NCBI RefSeq assembly: GCF_900066015.1
Contig: NZ_LN890656.1
Coordinates: 186,001 to 250,000 of the forward strand
DNA length: 64,000 nucleotides
Source of the DNA: Candidatus Promineifilum breve
GTDB lineage: Bacteria; Chloroflexota; Anaerolineae; Promineifilales; Promineifilaceae
Direction: 5' to 3'
A program made the position numbers and the translations under genes. Below the pieces are notes generated by a model that was not told the DNA's origin, ran no database searches, and worked only from the letters and a program-made list of their open reading frames with translations. Shown here in pieces: positions 3,299-64,000 of the stretch. Numbering within the stretch: position 1 is the first letter of the stretch; each line of letters starts with the position of its first letter.

Positions 3299-3433
3299 GC
3301 TACTCCTCAGAAAAGTGGCGCGGCGATTCAGGCGTCGAAGTCAGACGGCCGGGTCAGATACCGGTCTGGCTGAACCGGCGGGGTGGCTCCGCGGCGTGAG
3401 GATCGCCGCAAATGGCTCCAATACTCCTTCTAT

Positions 3434-3477
3434 ATTATAGAGGGGGTGGGGGGCGGTGGATAGTGACGAATGTCATA
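3434..3477 (-). promoter_or_regulatory. Promoter (-10 TATAAT) with conserved 35-bp upstream block, copy 1
   Basis: Reading the minus strand, a TATAAT lies at 3434-3439 and, 3 bp further upstream, a 35-bp block at 3443-3477. The block differs at one base from the one at 5482-5516 and has the same spacing to its -10. It holds an imperfect TGACA/CGTCA inverted repeat and no consensus -35, so activator-dependent transcription is plausible. Confidence 0.65.
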
Positions 3478-3499
3478 TCCTGGGGTGATATGACCAGAC

Positions 3500-5350
3500 C
3501 TAGCGCCGGGTAATGGGCACGAACACCCAATGATCCACCAGCGGCCCGGCCTCATACGCGCCGATGTCGCACTCGTTGGCCGAGGGTCGGCCGTCGCCGT
3601 TGATGTTGCGCGGGAAGTGGCGTTGGTCAGTCTGCCCGGCGCATTGCGCGGACGGCGCGGCGTCGATGGCCGGGCTGCCGGGCGGCAGGGCGTGGGTCGA
3701 CGTGGGGCCGAAGTTGTTGGCCAGGGTCATCGCCACGATTTGACCCGTGGTGACGCCGGCAGGCGGGACGATGTCGGTCGGGCCTACTTCGAAGCCGTAG
3801 ATGCCGGGATCGCCGTTGGCCCCGAACAGATTGAAGCCGCCGTCGAGCGGATTGCCAAAGGCGGCGATCGCCATTTGCGGGCCTAGCGGGGCGGCATTGC
3901 CGGTGATGAGGACGCGCTCGGCGAAGAATGTTTCGGGCCAGACGCCGTTGGTCCATATGCCACCGCCGGCGTTGTCGGCCACGTTAGCGGCGATGGTGCT
4001 GTTGCGGATCGTCAACAGATATGGCTCGACCACCAGGCCGCCGCCGTTGCCGCCATAGGCCGGGCCTTCAGCGGGCACGACGCGGAAAGCCTTGTTGCCA
4101 GAGATCGTGCAGTTTTCCAGCAGCACCTTGCCGCCCTCGGACAGAATGCCGCCGCCGTAAACCGCCTGGTTGCCGTTGATCGTCGTCTCGCGCACGGTCA
4201 CTTCGCCACCGCTCATGTAGATACCGCCGCCGGCCCCGGCCACATTACCGGACAGGATGGAATGGCTGATCTCCACATGCATCTCGCTGGGCCAGACGCT
4301 GTCGTGGATGGCGATCGCCCCGCCGGCTGTATCCTTAAAGCCGGGCACGTTCGGATTGCCGGTCACGTTGTTGGTGAAGCGGCTATGGCGGATGGCCGCG
4401 CTGGGTGTGCTCGCCAGGACCAATGCGCCGCCGATACGGCCGCCAGCCAGGGTGTAGTTGTTCGCGAAGACCGTGCCGTCGATGTCCACATCGCCGCGGT
4501 TGACGAAGACACCGCTGTTCACGGCGTTGTGTCCGCCGGTGATGAAGCTGTCGTGGAGGGTCACATCGGCATAGTAAGCCGAGATCGCGCCGCCGCTATT
4601 GCCGCCGAATTGGCTGCGCTCGACGGTTAGCGACGTGGATTCGGCGCGAATGGCCGCGCCGGTGTTACCGACGAAGGTGCTGTCCCGGACGATGAGGGGG
4701 CCGAGGGCGTGGATGGCCCCGCCGTGACTGCCCTGGACGCGGCCGCCGGCCAGGCCGAGGTTGTCGATCGTCAGGCTGCCGTATGGGCTGACGGTGAGCA
4801 GGTTGAGGTCTGCCTGCGTGTCCGGGTGTAGGCGAATGACCGCGCCGTTGCCCATAATGGTGACGGCCGACGTAATCATCGGCAGGCCGAGGAAGTTGAG
4901 GTAGGCGTGGCCTTGCTCGTGGGTCAGCAGGAATTCGCCGCCGGGCGGCAGGACGATGGTGTCGGCGCCGGCCGGGTCGCCGGGGGCGCAGTTGCCGTGG
5001 ATATGACCGTGAACCGTGTCGATGGCGTTTTCGATGGCCTCGGTCAGCGAGCAGAGATCATCTTCGTCGTCGATGTAGACCGCGCCATTGGCGACGGTGA
5101 TGTCGGCCGCGGCGGCGTAAGACCTGACAGGTTTTCCGAAACCTGTCAGGTCTAGGTGGGCCAGGTCAGGCTGGAAGGCCAGCAACAGCGCCGCCCCGGC
5201 CACAGTCAGGGCCAGGCGGCGGCGCAACAGCCGGCGCAATCGGCGCGGCAACCGGCTCAGCCGCTGATAATGGTGGACGAAACGCGCGGCGAGGGCCGAA
5301 TCGCGGCGCAACAGCCGGACGGCCGCCCACGGATCGGTGGGTGTGCTCAT
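3500..5350 (-). CDS. Secreted right-handed beta-helix protein (CSLREA-like / choice-of-anchor Q type)
   Basis: The start at 5350 is chosen because AGGGGAG lies just upstream of that ATG; the open frame extends 36 codons further, but that part has no ribosome site. The 616-residue product has an Arg-rich N-terminus with one hydrophobic segment (LALTVAGAALLLAF) acting as signal or anchor. Then DLCSLTEAIENA, a CSLREA-like motif, opens a long parallel beta-helix with turns such as GGGIYMSGGEVTVRETTING and GGGLVV...RNSTIAANVADNAGGGI. Near the end, NECDIGAYEAG matches the D-I-G-A-x-E tail of choice-of-anchor Q proteins. It is probably an adhesin-like or polysaccharide-contact surface protein. A 32-bp palindromic repeat lies inside the coding region at 5121-5152 and encodes the DLTGFGKPVRS stretch beside the hydrophobic segment. 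Confidence 0.75.
   Translation of the reverse strand: MSTPTDPWAAVRLLRRDSALAARFVHHYQRLSRLPRRLRRLLRRRLALTVAGAALLLAFQPDLAHLDLTGFGKPVRSYAAAADITVANGAVYIDDEDDLCSLTEAIENAIDTVHGHIHGNCAPGDPAGADTIVLPPGGEFLLTHEQGHAYLNFLGLPMITSAVTIMGNGAVIRLHPDTQADLNLLTVSPYGSLTIDNLGLAGGRVQGSHGGAIHALGPLIVRDSTFVGNTGAAIRAESTSLTVERSQFGGNSGGAISAYYADVTLHDSFITGGHNAVNSGVFVNRGDVDIDGTVFANNYTLAGGRIGGALVLASTPSAAIRHSRFTNNVTGNPNVPGFKDTAGGAIAIHDSVWPSEMHVEISHSILSGNVAGAGGGIYMSGGEVTVRETTINGNQAVYGGGILSEGGKVLLENCTISGNKAFRVVPAEGPAYGGNGGGLVVEPYLLTIRNSTIAANVADNAGGGIWTNGVWPETFFAERVLITGNAAPLGPQMAIAAFGNPLDGGFNLFGANGDPGIYGFEVGPTDIVPPAGVTTGQIVAMTLANNFGPTSTHALPPGSPAIDAAPSAQCAGQTDQRHFPRNINGDGRPSANECDIGAYEAGPLVDHWVFVPITRR
5121..5152. repeat. GACCTGACAGGT palindromic repeat inside a CDS
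   Basis: The two arms (GACCTGACAGGTTT and AAACCTGTCAGGTC) are perfect inverted copies around a 4-nt centre. A near-identical 32-bp unit is intergenic at 32366-32397, and a shorter form is at 19889-19903. The reading frame stays open through this copy. Confidence 0.9.
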
Positions 5351-5472
5351 GCTGCTCCCCTCATTCAACAGGCGCGGTGGCTCAGGCGATGAGGCCGGCC
5401 GGCCGGGCTGTGCCGGACGGTTGGCCTCAGGGGCAGGAGCAGCCGCCAATGGCTCCAACTACGATTTGGTTG

Positions 5473-5516
5473 AGTATAGCCGGGGTGGGGGGCGGTGGAT
5501 AGTGACGAACGTCATA
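5473..5516 (-). promoter_or_regulatory. Promoter (-10 TATACT) with conserved 35-bp upstream block, copy 2
   Basis: On the minus strand a TATACT lies at 5473-5478, and 3 bp upstream is the 35-bp block at 5482-5516, which matches 34 of 35 positions of the block at 3443-3477. This copy contains a perfect TGACG-AA-CGTCA inverted repeat (5503-5514). It should drive the beta-helix gene ending at 3500. Confidence 0.65.
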
Positions 5517-5563
5517 CAAAAAGGATCGAACAGACTTCCCGCGGACGTCTGTTCGCCAACCTG

Positions 5564-6202
5564 TCAGCCCTGGGAGCCAAGAATCCAGGCCAATGCGCCT
5601 TCGGTATCGACTTCTTCAGGTTCCCACAACCAATCCAGCCGCAGCCGGAAGCCGGGGATGGCGGCCGAGGAGTAGACGCCACCCTCGCCGATGGCGGCCG
5701 GAACGAACAGGCCGCGCTCGTCGCGGACGTAGAAGTCGGCTTGTTGCTGTTGGCTCCGGGGATCGATGATCCAGTATTCATTCACCCCGGCGCGTTCATA
5801 CTCGCGGAATTTATTGACGCGATCGGTGGTCACACTGGCGGGCGAGATGATCTCGATGACTAAATTTGGGCCGCCGTCAAAGCGTTGCCGGCTCAGGCTG
5901 CCCAGGCGGTCTTGACCGATGAACAGCACGTCCGGCTCGCGCGACGGGCCGCCGGGCCATAGCTTGACTTCATAGGGGGCCACCATAATCTGACCCAGAC
6001 GGAACTTGTTGACATAAAAGCCTAGAAGTAAGGCCAGCAGCAGGACGAGCTTCTGATGCGATGTTGATGCCGGCATATAGAAAATAGCCTCCCCATCGAC
6101 CCATTCGATAATCCGACTTTCGTCGGGTAGCGCCAGATACTCCTCGTAGGACATACGCTCCTTGCGGAGTGGCCTGATTATGTCAACCGTTAATGTTGCC
6201 AT
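5564..6202 (-). CDS. Uma2-family (DUF820) restriction-endonuclease-fold protein
   Basis: The 212-residue protein has the Uma2 hallmarks: MSYEEYLALPDE near the N-terminus, EWVDGEAI, an S-x-x-H pair (SHQKL), EPDVLFI, LVIEIISPAS, DRVNKFREYERAGVNEYWIID. The E-P-D-V and V-I-E-I-x-S-P motifs carry the PD-(D/E)XK-type acidic residues. The family is very common in Cyanobacteria and Chloroflexota, and its biological role is not settled. I start it at the ATG at 6202; a TTG one codon earlier is possible. Length is normal (180-220). Confidence 0.88.
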   Translation of the reverse strand: MATLTVDIIRPLRKERMSYEEYLALPDESRIIEWVDGEAIFYMPASTSHQKLVLLLALLLGFYVNKFRLGQIMVAPYEVKLWPGGPSREPDVLFIGQDRLGSLSRQRFDGGPNLVIEIISPASVTTDRVNKFREYERAGVNEYWIIDPRSQQQQADFYVRDERGLFVPAAIGEGGVYSSAAIPGFRLRLDWLWEPEEVDTEGALAWILGSQG

Positions 6203-17047: not shown

Positions 17048-17626
17048 ATGCAGAGCCTGAAAGACCGTATCCGCCGCGAGGGGGAGAACCTCGGCCGCGG
17101 CATCCTGAAGATCGACAGCTTCCTCAATCACCAGATCGACCCCTTACTAATGGAAGAGGCCGGCCGGGCCATCGCCGCCCAGTTCGCCGCCGCCCAGCCC
17201 ACGCGCATCCTGACCGCCGAAGTCAGCGGCATCATCCCGGCCACGATGACCGGCCGCGCGCTGGGCAATCTGCCGGTGGTCTACGCCCGCAAGCACAAGC
17301 CGATCACCATGCGCGAGCCGGTCTACGTCGATTCGGCCCCCAGCCACACCAAGGGCGGCGAGGTGCTGCTCATGGTCTCGCCCGAGTTCCTGGCCGCCGG
17401 CGACCGCATCCTGATCGTCGATGACTTCCTGGCCTCCGGCCGCACCATCGACGCCCTGGCCCGCATCGTGCAATCGGCCGGGGCCACGCTGGTGGGCATT
17501 GCCGCGGTAGTGGAGAAGACGTTTGAGGGCGGGCGGGAGATGCTGGCCCACTGGGACGTGCGCATCGTGGCGTTGGCGACGATCACCGATATGAGTGAAG
17601 GCCAGATTATTCTTAATGACGAATGA
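17048..17626 (+). CDS. xpt: Xanthine phosphoribosyltransferase
   Basis: The ATG at 17048 gives 192 residues, the usual Xpt length, with the typical start MQSLKDRIRREG; the open frame upstream runs through a repeat and is not coding. Motifs: LKIDSFLNHQIDPLLM, TAEVSGIIPATMTG, VVYARKHKPITM and the PRPP-binding ILIVDDFLASGRT (about 121-133). The enzyme salvages xanthine to XMP with PRPP, and guaA downstream converts XMP to GMP, so the pair forms a salvage route to GMP. The last residues and the TGA stop (LNDE, stop) come from the GACGAAT repeat that follows. Confidence 0.93.
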   Translation: MQSLKDRIRREGENLGRGILKIDSFLNHQIDPLLMEEAGRAIAAQFAAAQPTRILTAEVSGIIPATMTGRALGNLPVVYARKHKPITMREPVYVDSAPSHTKGGEVLLMVSPEFLAAGDRILIVDDFLASGRTIDALARIVQSAGATLVGIAAVVEKTFEGGREMLAHWDVRIVALATITDMSEGQIILNDE

Positions 17627-17787
17627 CGAATGACGAATGACGAATGAAGAGCGCCGGCCGCATGGGGAATGACGAATGGCGAATGACGAATGACGAATGA
17701 AGAGCGCCGGTGACCGAGGTAGGTTGTAGGGCGGGATGGTATCCCGCCAGCCGCATTGTGAATGACGAAGGACGAATGACAAATTAT
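17617..17787. repeat. GACGAAT heptamer array with GTAGGGCGGGAT unit
   Basis: Several GACGAATGACGAATGACGAAT runs are interrupted by GAAGAGCGCCGG and by a GGCGGGATGGTATCCCGCC palindrome. The array begins inside the xpt stop codon. Its inverted counterpart lies at 18167-18213, on the far side of the four-helix-bundle gene. Confidence 0.9.
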
Positions 17788-17805: not shown

Positions 17806-18168
17806 ATGGGCGGTGAACAGGCTTTACAAGTTAAGACGGCCGATATTGCCCTGCGAATTATCAAAATGGTGGAAGCACTGCCTCCCGGTCCTATCGCCAA
17901 TGTGATTGGTCATCAAGTGCTACGCTCCGGCACGTCGATTGGAGCCAACTACCGGGCCGCCGCCCGCGCCAAATCCAAGGCCGACATGGTAAACAAGCTA
18001 AAAATCGTCGAAGAAGAAGCCGATGAGACAATCTATTGGCTGGATTTACTCGTCAAATCTGAACTCGTTCCCGAAAATCGATTGAAACCCCTGATGAACG
18101 AAGTAGAACAAGTCGTCGCCCTCACCGTCGCATCGATCAAAACCATCCGCGCCAACCAGCGCTCTTAA
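17806..18168 (+). CDS. Four-helix-bundle protein (23S rRNA intervening-sequence protein family)
   Basis: The 120-residue protein starts at ATG 17806 behind GAGGGGG. It has the family pattern: LRIIKMVEALPPGPIANVIG, HQVLRSGTSIGANYRAAARAKSKADMVNKL and KIVEEEADETIYWLDLLV. These proteins were first seen in 23S rRNA intervening sequences and are also scattered as stand-alone genes near repeats and retroelements; their function is not established. The gene lies between xpt and guaA, enclosed by inverted GACGAAT arrays, and its base composition is visibly less GC-rich than both neighbours. It looks like an inserted cassette. Confidence 0.85.
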   Translation: MGGEQALQVKTADIALRIIKMVEALPPGPIANVIGHQVLRSGTSIGANYRAAARAKSKADMVNKLKIVEEEADETIYWLDLLVKSELVPENRLKPLMNEVEQVVALTVASIKTIRANQRS

Positions 18169-18213
18169 TTCGTCATTCGTCATTCGTCATTCGTCATTAG
18201 CCATTCGTCATTC
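18167..18213. repeat. ATTCGTC heptamer array (inverse of 17617-17787)
   Basis: Six ATTCGTC-like units lie between the stop of the four-helix-bundle gene and the guaA start. Orientation is opposite to the upstream array, so both together bracket the gene as inverted repeats. Confidence 0.9.
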
Positions 18214-63635: not shown

Positions 63636-63765
63636 TGGGTAGTGGACAGTGGGCAGTGGTCAGTGGGCCGCTATCGCTGTCGCAATCGCAATCGTTCTTC
63701 AGTCGTCAGTCGTCAGTGGTCAGTGGTCTTCATTCGTCATTCGTCATTCGTAATTCTTAATTCGT
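63636..63765. repeat. CAGTGGTCAGTGG, GATTGC and ATTCGTC repeats
   Basis: A composite of TGGACAGTGGGCAGTGGTCAG units, a CAATCGCAATCG stretch, more AGTCGTCAGTGG units and ATTCGTCATTCGTCATTCG. It joins two repeat families in one spacer. Confidence 0.82.
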
Positions 63766-63773
63766 AATTGTCC

Positions 63774-64000
63774 ATGAACGATACAACCGGCATCTTTTTG
63801 TTTTTCATCCTGGTGAGCGGGATCGTGCTCATCCTGTTGCTGCTGACCAAGGACAAAGGCAGCGGTGTGCTCAAATTCGGCCGCGCCGAGTTGCGCATCG
63901 ACTTCGATAACGCCAAAGGCTGGGTGAAAAGCAGCCGCCAACCGCCCGGACGACCGCGGGCCGCCTGTTATCTGGCGGTGAAGGGCACGGATTGGACCTT
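63774..64000 (+). CDS. Membrane protein, N-terminal part (3' truncated by window)
   Basis: From the ATG at 63774 the frame is open to the window end (75 codons). It starts with one membrane helix (GIFLFFILVSGIVLILLLLT, about residues 6-25), then a basic, beta-like start (VLKFGRAELRIDFDNAKG, AACYLAVKGTDWT). I do not recognise a family. The preceding spacer contains repeats and no clear ribosome site. It is on the strand of the kinase island and may belong to it. Confidence 0.6.
   Translation, partial: MNDTTGIFLFFILVSGIVLILLLLTKDKGSGVLKFGRAELRIDFDNAKGWVKSSRQPPGRPRAACYLAVKGTDWT

Follow-up and report, generated by a model that had tools for sequence, protein, structure and literature searches.

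A duplicated promoter box before two exported-protein genes of Candidatus Promineifilum breve and a DosR-like regulator that may read it

Introduction

DosR reads the operator core GAC-N4-GTC, whereas proteins of the CRP/FNR family read TGA-N6-TCA, which at class II sites lies near −41.5 to −42.5 and replaces the −35 element. In the DevR promoters of Mycobacterium tuberculosis the boxes are close-packed, the proximal box overlaps the −35 element and cooperative binding is needed (PMC3029386, PMC4973870); full induction at the promoters studied required at least two boxes (PMC3029386), and the contacts of DosR with DNA involve Lys179, Lys182 and Asn183 (PMC4082495). OsdR of Streptomyces coelicolor is surrounded by Usp genes and targets a pyruvate phosphate dikinase, and its predicted targets include exported proteases (PMC5069765). 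The operator of the DevR-like pair PolS-PolR, from Microlunatus, is a direct repeat (PMC6754071), so operators vary among DevR-like systems. No description of a DosR regulon in Chloroflexota was found in the literature searched.

The bacterium considered here, 'Ca. Promineofilum breve', is described as a facultative anaerobe, with two chromosomes and a plasmid in its Cfx-K genome (PMC6753630). The 5.03 Mb genome analysed, presumably this same one, was available in three contigs, and the 64,000-nucleotide stretch that was analysed (the window) is C2:186001-250000. The system reported below is like DosR/DevR in having a NarL-type regulator with a GAF sensor kinase, in the GAC-N4-GTC core of its box, whose outer bases differ, in close-packed boxes with the promoter-proximal one at −35 (PMC3029386), and, as in the DosR regulon (PMC5069765), in stress and redox genes near boxes. 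It differs in its operator, which is TGACATTYGTCA against the mycobacterial TTSGGGACTWWAGTCCCSAA (PMC2275270), in a kinase with one GAF domain, and in exported beta-helix and PPC-like proteins as putative targets; the window promoters are by eye single-boxed, in contrast to the at least two boxes required for full DevR induction (PMC3029386). Usp genes and a presumed pyruvate phosphate dikinase beside the regulator pair recall the OsdKR cluster, although the OsdKR operator, AGGGCCGATCGGCCCT, differs from the present box and Streptomyces belongs to another phylum (PMC5069765). The likeness to CRP/FNR class II promoters lies in the TGA-N6-TCA core and in a site that takes the place of the −35 element; unlike these, the present boxes have a conserved centre and a 22-23 bp doubling and are not co-localised with any of the three CRP/FNR-type genes of the genome.

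The two window genes

The window pair consists of a gene for a PPC-like protein and a gene for a right-handed beta-helix protein (Table 1), both on the minus strand, which corrects an earlier sequence-only reading of this DNA; both products are called exported from signal-peptide-like N-termini judged by eye. The PPC label given in that reading is supported by predicted fold and not by family: the PPC-like protein has no match in Pfam or NCBIfam, but its structure model finds its best PDB matches among collagenase collagen-binding (PPC) domains (E 3e-6). The C-terminal part (about residues 174-420) has 28 matches in this genome (G000). We note that it recurs in many large proteins, mostly encoded on C2, again with no Pfam or NCBIfam match. 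The two coding regions are not homologous, as the earlier reading had stated, yet four paralogues in the same genome join a beta-helix part and the PPC-like C-terminal domain in one frame, which argues that the window pair is functionally linked.

Table 1. Features of the window pair and of related loci (window coordinates unless a locus or contig is given)
Feature	Position	Strand	Details
Exported PPC-like protein, 421 aa	2033..3298	minus	structure model pLDDT 75.6
5′ leader, PPC-like gene	3299..3433	minus	homologous to beta-helix leader; RNA folding z −0.89
−10 hexamer TATAAT, PPC-like gene	3434..3439	minus	sequence and TANNNT peak 23-25 nt past box
Shared 35-bp block, copy 1	3443..3477	minus	34/35 identical to copy 2
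CTATCC directly 3′ of box 1	3458..3463	minus	−35 position, 17-18 nt before −10
Operator box 1 (putative), TGACATTCGTCA	3464..3475	minus	exact match in genome search; −10 lies 24 nt downstream
Exported right-handed beta-helix protein	3500..5350	minus	choice-of-anchor Q domain near C end
5′ leader, beta-helix gene	5351..5472	minus	homologous to PPC-like leader; RNA folding z −0.13
−10 hexamer TATACT, beta-helix gene	5473..5478	minus	sequence and TANNNT peak
Shared 35-bp block, copy 2	5482..5516	minus	read from window sequence
CTATCC directly 3′ of box 2	5497..5502	minus	−35 position
Operator box 2 (putative), TGACGTTCGTCA	5503..5514	minus	genome search; −10 lies 24 nt downstream
DosR-like regulator, 218 aa	L186:17907-18563	minus	
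Fused beta-helix/PPC-like paralogues	C2:707446-709938, 630485-632869, 966074-968728, 969171-971687		

Probable duplication of promoter and leader

On the minus strand both genes carry ATGACRTTCGTCACTATCCACCGCCCCCCACCCC, and the observations from which the earlier reading had started are confirmed: the two copies of this 35-bp block agree at 34 positions, lie exactly three bases before the −10 hexamer in both cases, and are followed by similar leaders. The symmetry TGACG-AA-CGTCA that had been ascribed to the block is a near-palindrome, which has this form in copy 2 and reads TGACG-AA-TGTCA in copy 1. The missing −35 consensus also stands, since a promoter search finds no sigma-70 −35/−10 pair at either site, and an ordinary sigma-70 promoter with a normal −35 element was rejected for that reason. 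Each window promoter has a single box 24 nt from its −10 hexamer, a second box being absent from both by eye, and a C-rich spacer was seen solely in these two promoters.

The similarity is longer than the block, with 77 % identity over about 118 bp by blast (E = 3.4e-15). Between the block and the start codons the leader alignment has 94 identities, 33 mismatches and 23 gap positions, and none of 2000 shuffles attained the local alignment score of 41, the highest shuffled score being 19. Because the similarity extends through the leader to the start codons, promoter and 5′ leader were probably duplicated together as one unit. The earlier reading had offered a regulatory segment either copied alone or kept by selection; both turn out to apply, in that promoter and leader were copied and the block then stayed better conserved than the leader (P = 3.5e-4 for 34/35 given a leader identity of 74 %). 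An RNA element in the leader was considered and rejected, as the window has no Rfam match, neither leader gives a folding signal (Table 1) and alignment of leaders across the PPC family produced nothing convincing. The sequence GGAGCC is common to several leaders. A 13-bp inverted repeat followed by Ts lies on the minus strand at 5527-5555, just upstream of box 2 and 3′ of a Uma2-family gene (5564-6154), of which it could be the terminator.

The box in the genome, genus and family

A search of the genome with the block, proposed earlier as a way to define a regulon, yields a regulon-like set, although what recurs is not the 35-bp block: the working element is the 12-bp box TGACATTYGTCA, which ends 24 nt before the −10 hexamer and is followed by CTAT(C) at the −35 position. 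Apart from the window copies, the block is matched in part at a single site of the genome, C2:502037 before a PPC paralogue; this site shares TGACATTCGTCACTATCC with it and has a further box 22 bp upstream. When this genome was searched with TGACATTCGTCA at no more than one mismatch, 46 places were found against 4 for the reversed pattern; of the 45 distinct ones entered in a table, which leaves out C2:502015, 33 are intergenic. Contig C2, a fifth of the genome, holds 18 of the 46 (P = 0.0026). Across the genus, TGACATTYGTCAC at the same threshold gives 219 matches against 21 for the control and is found in all eight genomes. The box is a promoter element across genome and genus and is not private to the window pair. 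Ratios of box to control are usually high within the family and low outside it, with the family genomes G015 (12:10), G020 (20:69), G025 (16:13) and G032 (35:36) as exceptions.

Intergenic arrays of the heptamer AATGACG / CGTCATT are present in the window at 17615-17724, 18156-18213 and 63725-63783. Such arrays resemble half of the box and explain some near matches, and by eye some of the 46 places fall within them (L027, L028, L039).

Promoter geometry

Geometry was scored on 69 unique boxes, 11 of them within genes, 52 boxes providing 74 oriented promoter positions. The pattern TANNNT occurs 23, 24 and 25 nt past the box in 6, 14 and 11 of the 74 oriented boxes, against a mean of 1.3 at other offsets; these counts are not independent, the loci having mostly been fetched by a box query and some being orthologous, although no selection was made for spacing. 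The further peak at 46 nt, with 8 boxes, comes from the distal member of box pairs. For 58 intergenic boxes, a neighbouring box (no more than three mismatches, pairs possibly being counted from both ends) was found 22 times at a distance of 22 bp and 8 times at 23 bp, against a mean of 0.19 at other distances. CTAT directly follows the box in 12 of the 31 oriented boxes with TANNNT at 23-25 nt and in none of the 43 without it. The ATT at the centre of the box is conserved at 1.1-1.3 bits in a sample picked for likeness to the box. The oriented boxes thus include the close-packed palindromic GAC-N4-GTC boxes, the proximal one at −35, that are a DosR/DevR-type feature, and also the CRP/FNR-type feature of a TGA-N6-TCA operator at the class II position.

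Co-regulation of the window pair by one activator, as the earlier reading had proposed, is well supported by the genome- and genus-wide box, its fixed distance from the −10 hexamer and its frequent doubling.

Candidate regulators

A GAF sensor kinase and a NarL-type regulator are encoded at C1:498.7-500.6k among Usp, CBS, DsbA and VKOR genes, and the gene adjoining the pair is one that we take to encode pyruvate phosphate dikinase. When the PDB was searched with the regulator using phmmer, the best match was DevR (3c3w, E 2.3e-47), with VraR equal within error; the recognition helix, TVRNYVS, is closer to TVKNYVS of DevR than to TVKTHVS of VraR. Compared with the DNA contacts of DosR (PMC4082495), this helix keeps Asn and, by our own count, has Arg for Lys182 and Gly for Lys179. 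The five best PDB matches of the kinase are DevS/DosT GAF entries (best E 3.8e-29). The fifth of these, 2vzw, is presumably DosT. A pattern search for the HPP-motif histidine, by our reading the haem-ligating H149, found it in 15 of 20 loci and not in the other five; judging from its sequence, the DevS-like GAF kinase is probably haem-binding.

The regulator and the CRP/FNR-type protein CRP-A were compared in 20 of the 24 family genomes that have both genes, with up to 7.4 kb around each. The surroundings of the DosR-like gene contain a box in 20/20 genomes (35 boxes at no more than one mismatch, control 2), against 2/20 for CRP-A (2 boxes, control 0). At 72 regulator loci outside the family, as judged by identity, there are 9 boxes against 2 in the control, and at four of the 72 (L260, L280, L288 and L293) the box reads TGAC-N4-GTCACTAT with a −10 hexamer exactly 24 nt on. 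At these four loci the box precedes a gene of 75-92 aa, followed in L288 by a gene readable as a universal stress protein. Autoregulation of the DosR-like gene could not be shown to be conserved: a box is directly upstream of the regulator in 5/30 loci, the background being 17/307 windows.

We regard it as probable that the window pair is co-regulated by a redox regulator of the DosR/DevR/OsdR type with a diverged operator, acting at a duplicated activator-dependent promoter. The main objection to the DosR-like regulator as reader of the box comes from boxed relatives without its gene. Three family genomes with CRP-A and no regulator orthologue above 50 % still have boxes (box to control, G007 26:1, G027 33:0, G031 18:7), as do two with neither gene (G006 15:1, G023 19:7); ten genomes outside the family with a regulator orthologue have 72 boxes against 41 in the control, and over 59 genomes box enrichment does not follow the distribution of the regulator.

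A CRP/FNR-family activator binding the box as a class II site was our first reading, dropped because boxes are near CRP-A in so few family genomes, and we now hold it to be unlikely. The TGA-N6-TCA core of the box has CRP/FNR spacing, its distance from the −10 hexamer is also compatible with class II activation, and the genome has three CRP/FNR-type genes, one of which, CRP-A, is present at 60-84 % identity in 26/34 other family genomes and 0/24 outside, matching the family-wide enrichment. However, in this genome all three genes are free of boxes to a distance of 10 kb, family genomes without CRP-A retain boxes (for example G013, 47:13), and the conserved ATT centre sets the box apart from a CRP site, with its spacer. 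In its recognition helix CRP-A has V at the position of CRP E181, a poor fit to a TGA half-site. We note that a second such gene, CRP-B, adjoins a nosZ-like gene (L079, about 1217-1450; C1:125k), where a palindrome, TTTGCATTATTGCAAA, is seen by eye some 23 nt upstream of a potential −10 hexamer; given this separate palindrome, CRP-B probably has its own, different operator.

That another regulator, perhaps a NarL-type protein conserved in the family, reads the box, with DosR-like genes merely frequent among its targets, seems to us quite unlikely. Each genome has many NarL-type regulators, and the persistence of boxes in family members for which no DosR-like gene was found would then be expected, but those genomes are drafts, 68-94 % complete, in some of which only part of the candidates were scored, and the 20/20 co-localisation and the matching register outside the family are easiest to explain with the DosR-like gene as the reader. 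It is highly improbable that the block is a recent local duplication or repeat of no regulatory meaning: promoter and leader are alike as a whole and part of the box resembles the ATTCGTC heptamer arrays elsewhere in the window, yet the block outlasts its leader in conservation, the box is found at a constant distance from the −10 hexamer in promoters that are otherwise unrelated, which speaks against the common repeat without promoter context that the earlier reading had allowed for, and boxes also stand in other sequence surroundings before a paralogue in this genome and before relatives of both genes.

Regulation by a DosR-like protein would run as follows. A dimer of a NarL-family response regulator of the DosR/DevR/OsdR type, phosphorylated by the DevS-like GAF kinase, would bind TGACATTYGTCA, whose centre would be at about −42.5 for a transcription start 7 nt past the −10 hexamer, abutting a degenerate −35 element (CTATC). 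The bound regulator would act as an activator, recruiting RNA polymerase to a promoter with a −10 hexamer and no usable −35 element. Since the kinase is DevS-like and probably haem-binding, it is likely to respond to low oxygen, NO or redox state. The window pair would belong to a regulon made up of redox, anaerobic, stress and exported-protein genes, one local duplication having given the two promoter-leader copies and selection having then retained the block. As the box word and the helix residues differ from those of DosR, we call the present set a variant that may work like the DosR regulon, and do not claim membership as proven.

We would give an even chance to a broader proposition, that the Promineifilum family has a DosR/OsdR-type regulon in which the operator has been re-written to TGACATTYGTCA plus CTAT and surface proteins have been recruited by promoter-leader cassettes. 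Genes for exported, adhesin-like proteins of the beta-helix and PPC types, the majority of them on the second replicon of 1 Mb, would then have joined by whole-cassette copying, and the cell surface would be switched as filaments move between aerobic and anaerobic conditions. The exported proteins of filamentous sludge bacteria would be tied to oxygen or redox state, and the dormancy-type DosR system of Actinobacteria would reach into Chloroflexota, where its changed DNA word would offer a natural experiment on shifts of specificity among NarL-type regulators. For a phylum whose gene regulation is little known, the analysis names a candidate regulator and a specific operator that can be searched for.

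Genes downstream of boxes

In this genome the genes downstream of boxes include those for formate dehydrogenase alpha, a 2Fe-2S thioredoxin-like ferredoxin, a multicopper oxidase, a MauG-type cytochrome c peroxidase, a DsbA-like thioredoxin, two regulators (a DtxR-type repressor and an ArsR-type regulator) and several exported proteins. Boxed PPC-like/beta-helix paralogues include those at C2:502k (L025), C2:587k (L071), C2:637k (L152) and C2:966k (L183). By eye, four of seven PPC-family upstream regions have a box (the window, L143, L129 and L142, the last with a box ending in TCC), and the other three (L127, L128, L151) have a TTGAC-type −35 element and no box; a box-like core is seen in 3 of 10 readable beta-helix upstream regions (the window, L157 and L183). 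The formate dehydrogenase gene (L187:7036-9159; C1:509k) is seemingly split by a stop after VDHCARL, possibly a selenocysteine codon. A strongly conserved double box, TGACAAATCGTA-N10-TGACATTTGTCACTAT, precedes a short gene (104 aa in L031) that matches no known family, and the same upstream footprint is found in four loci (L031, L108, L110 and L121).
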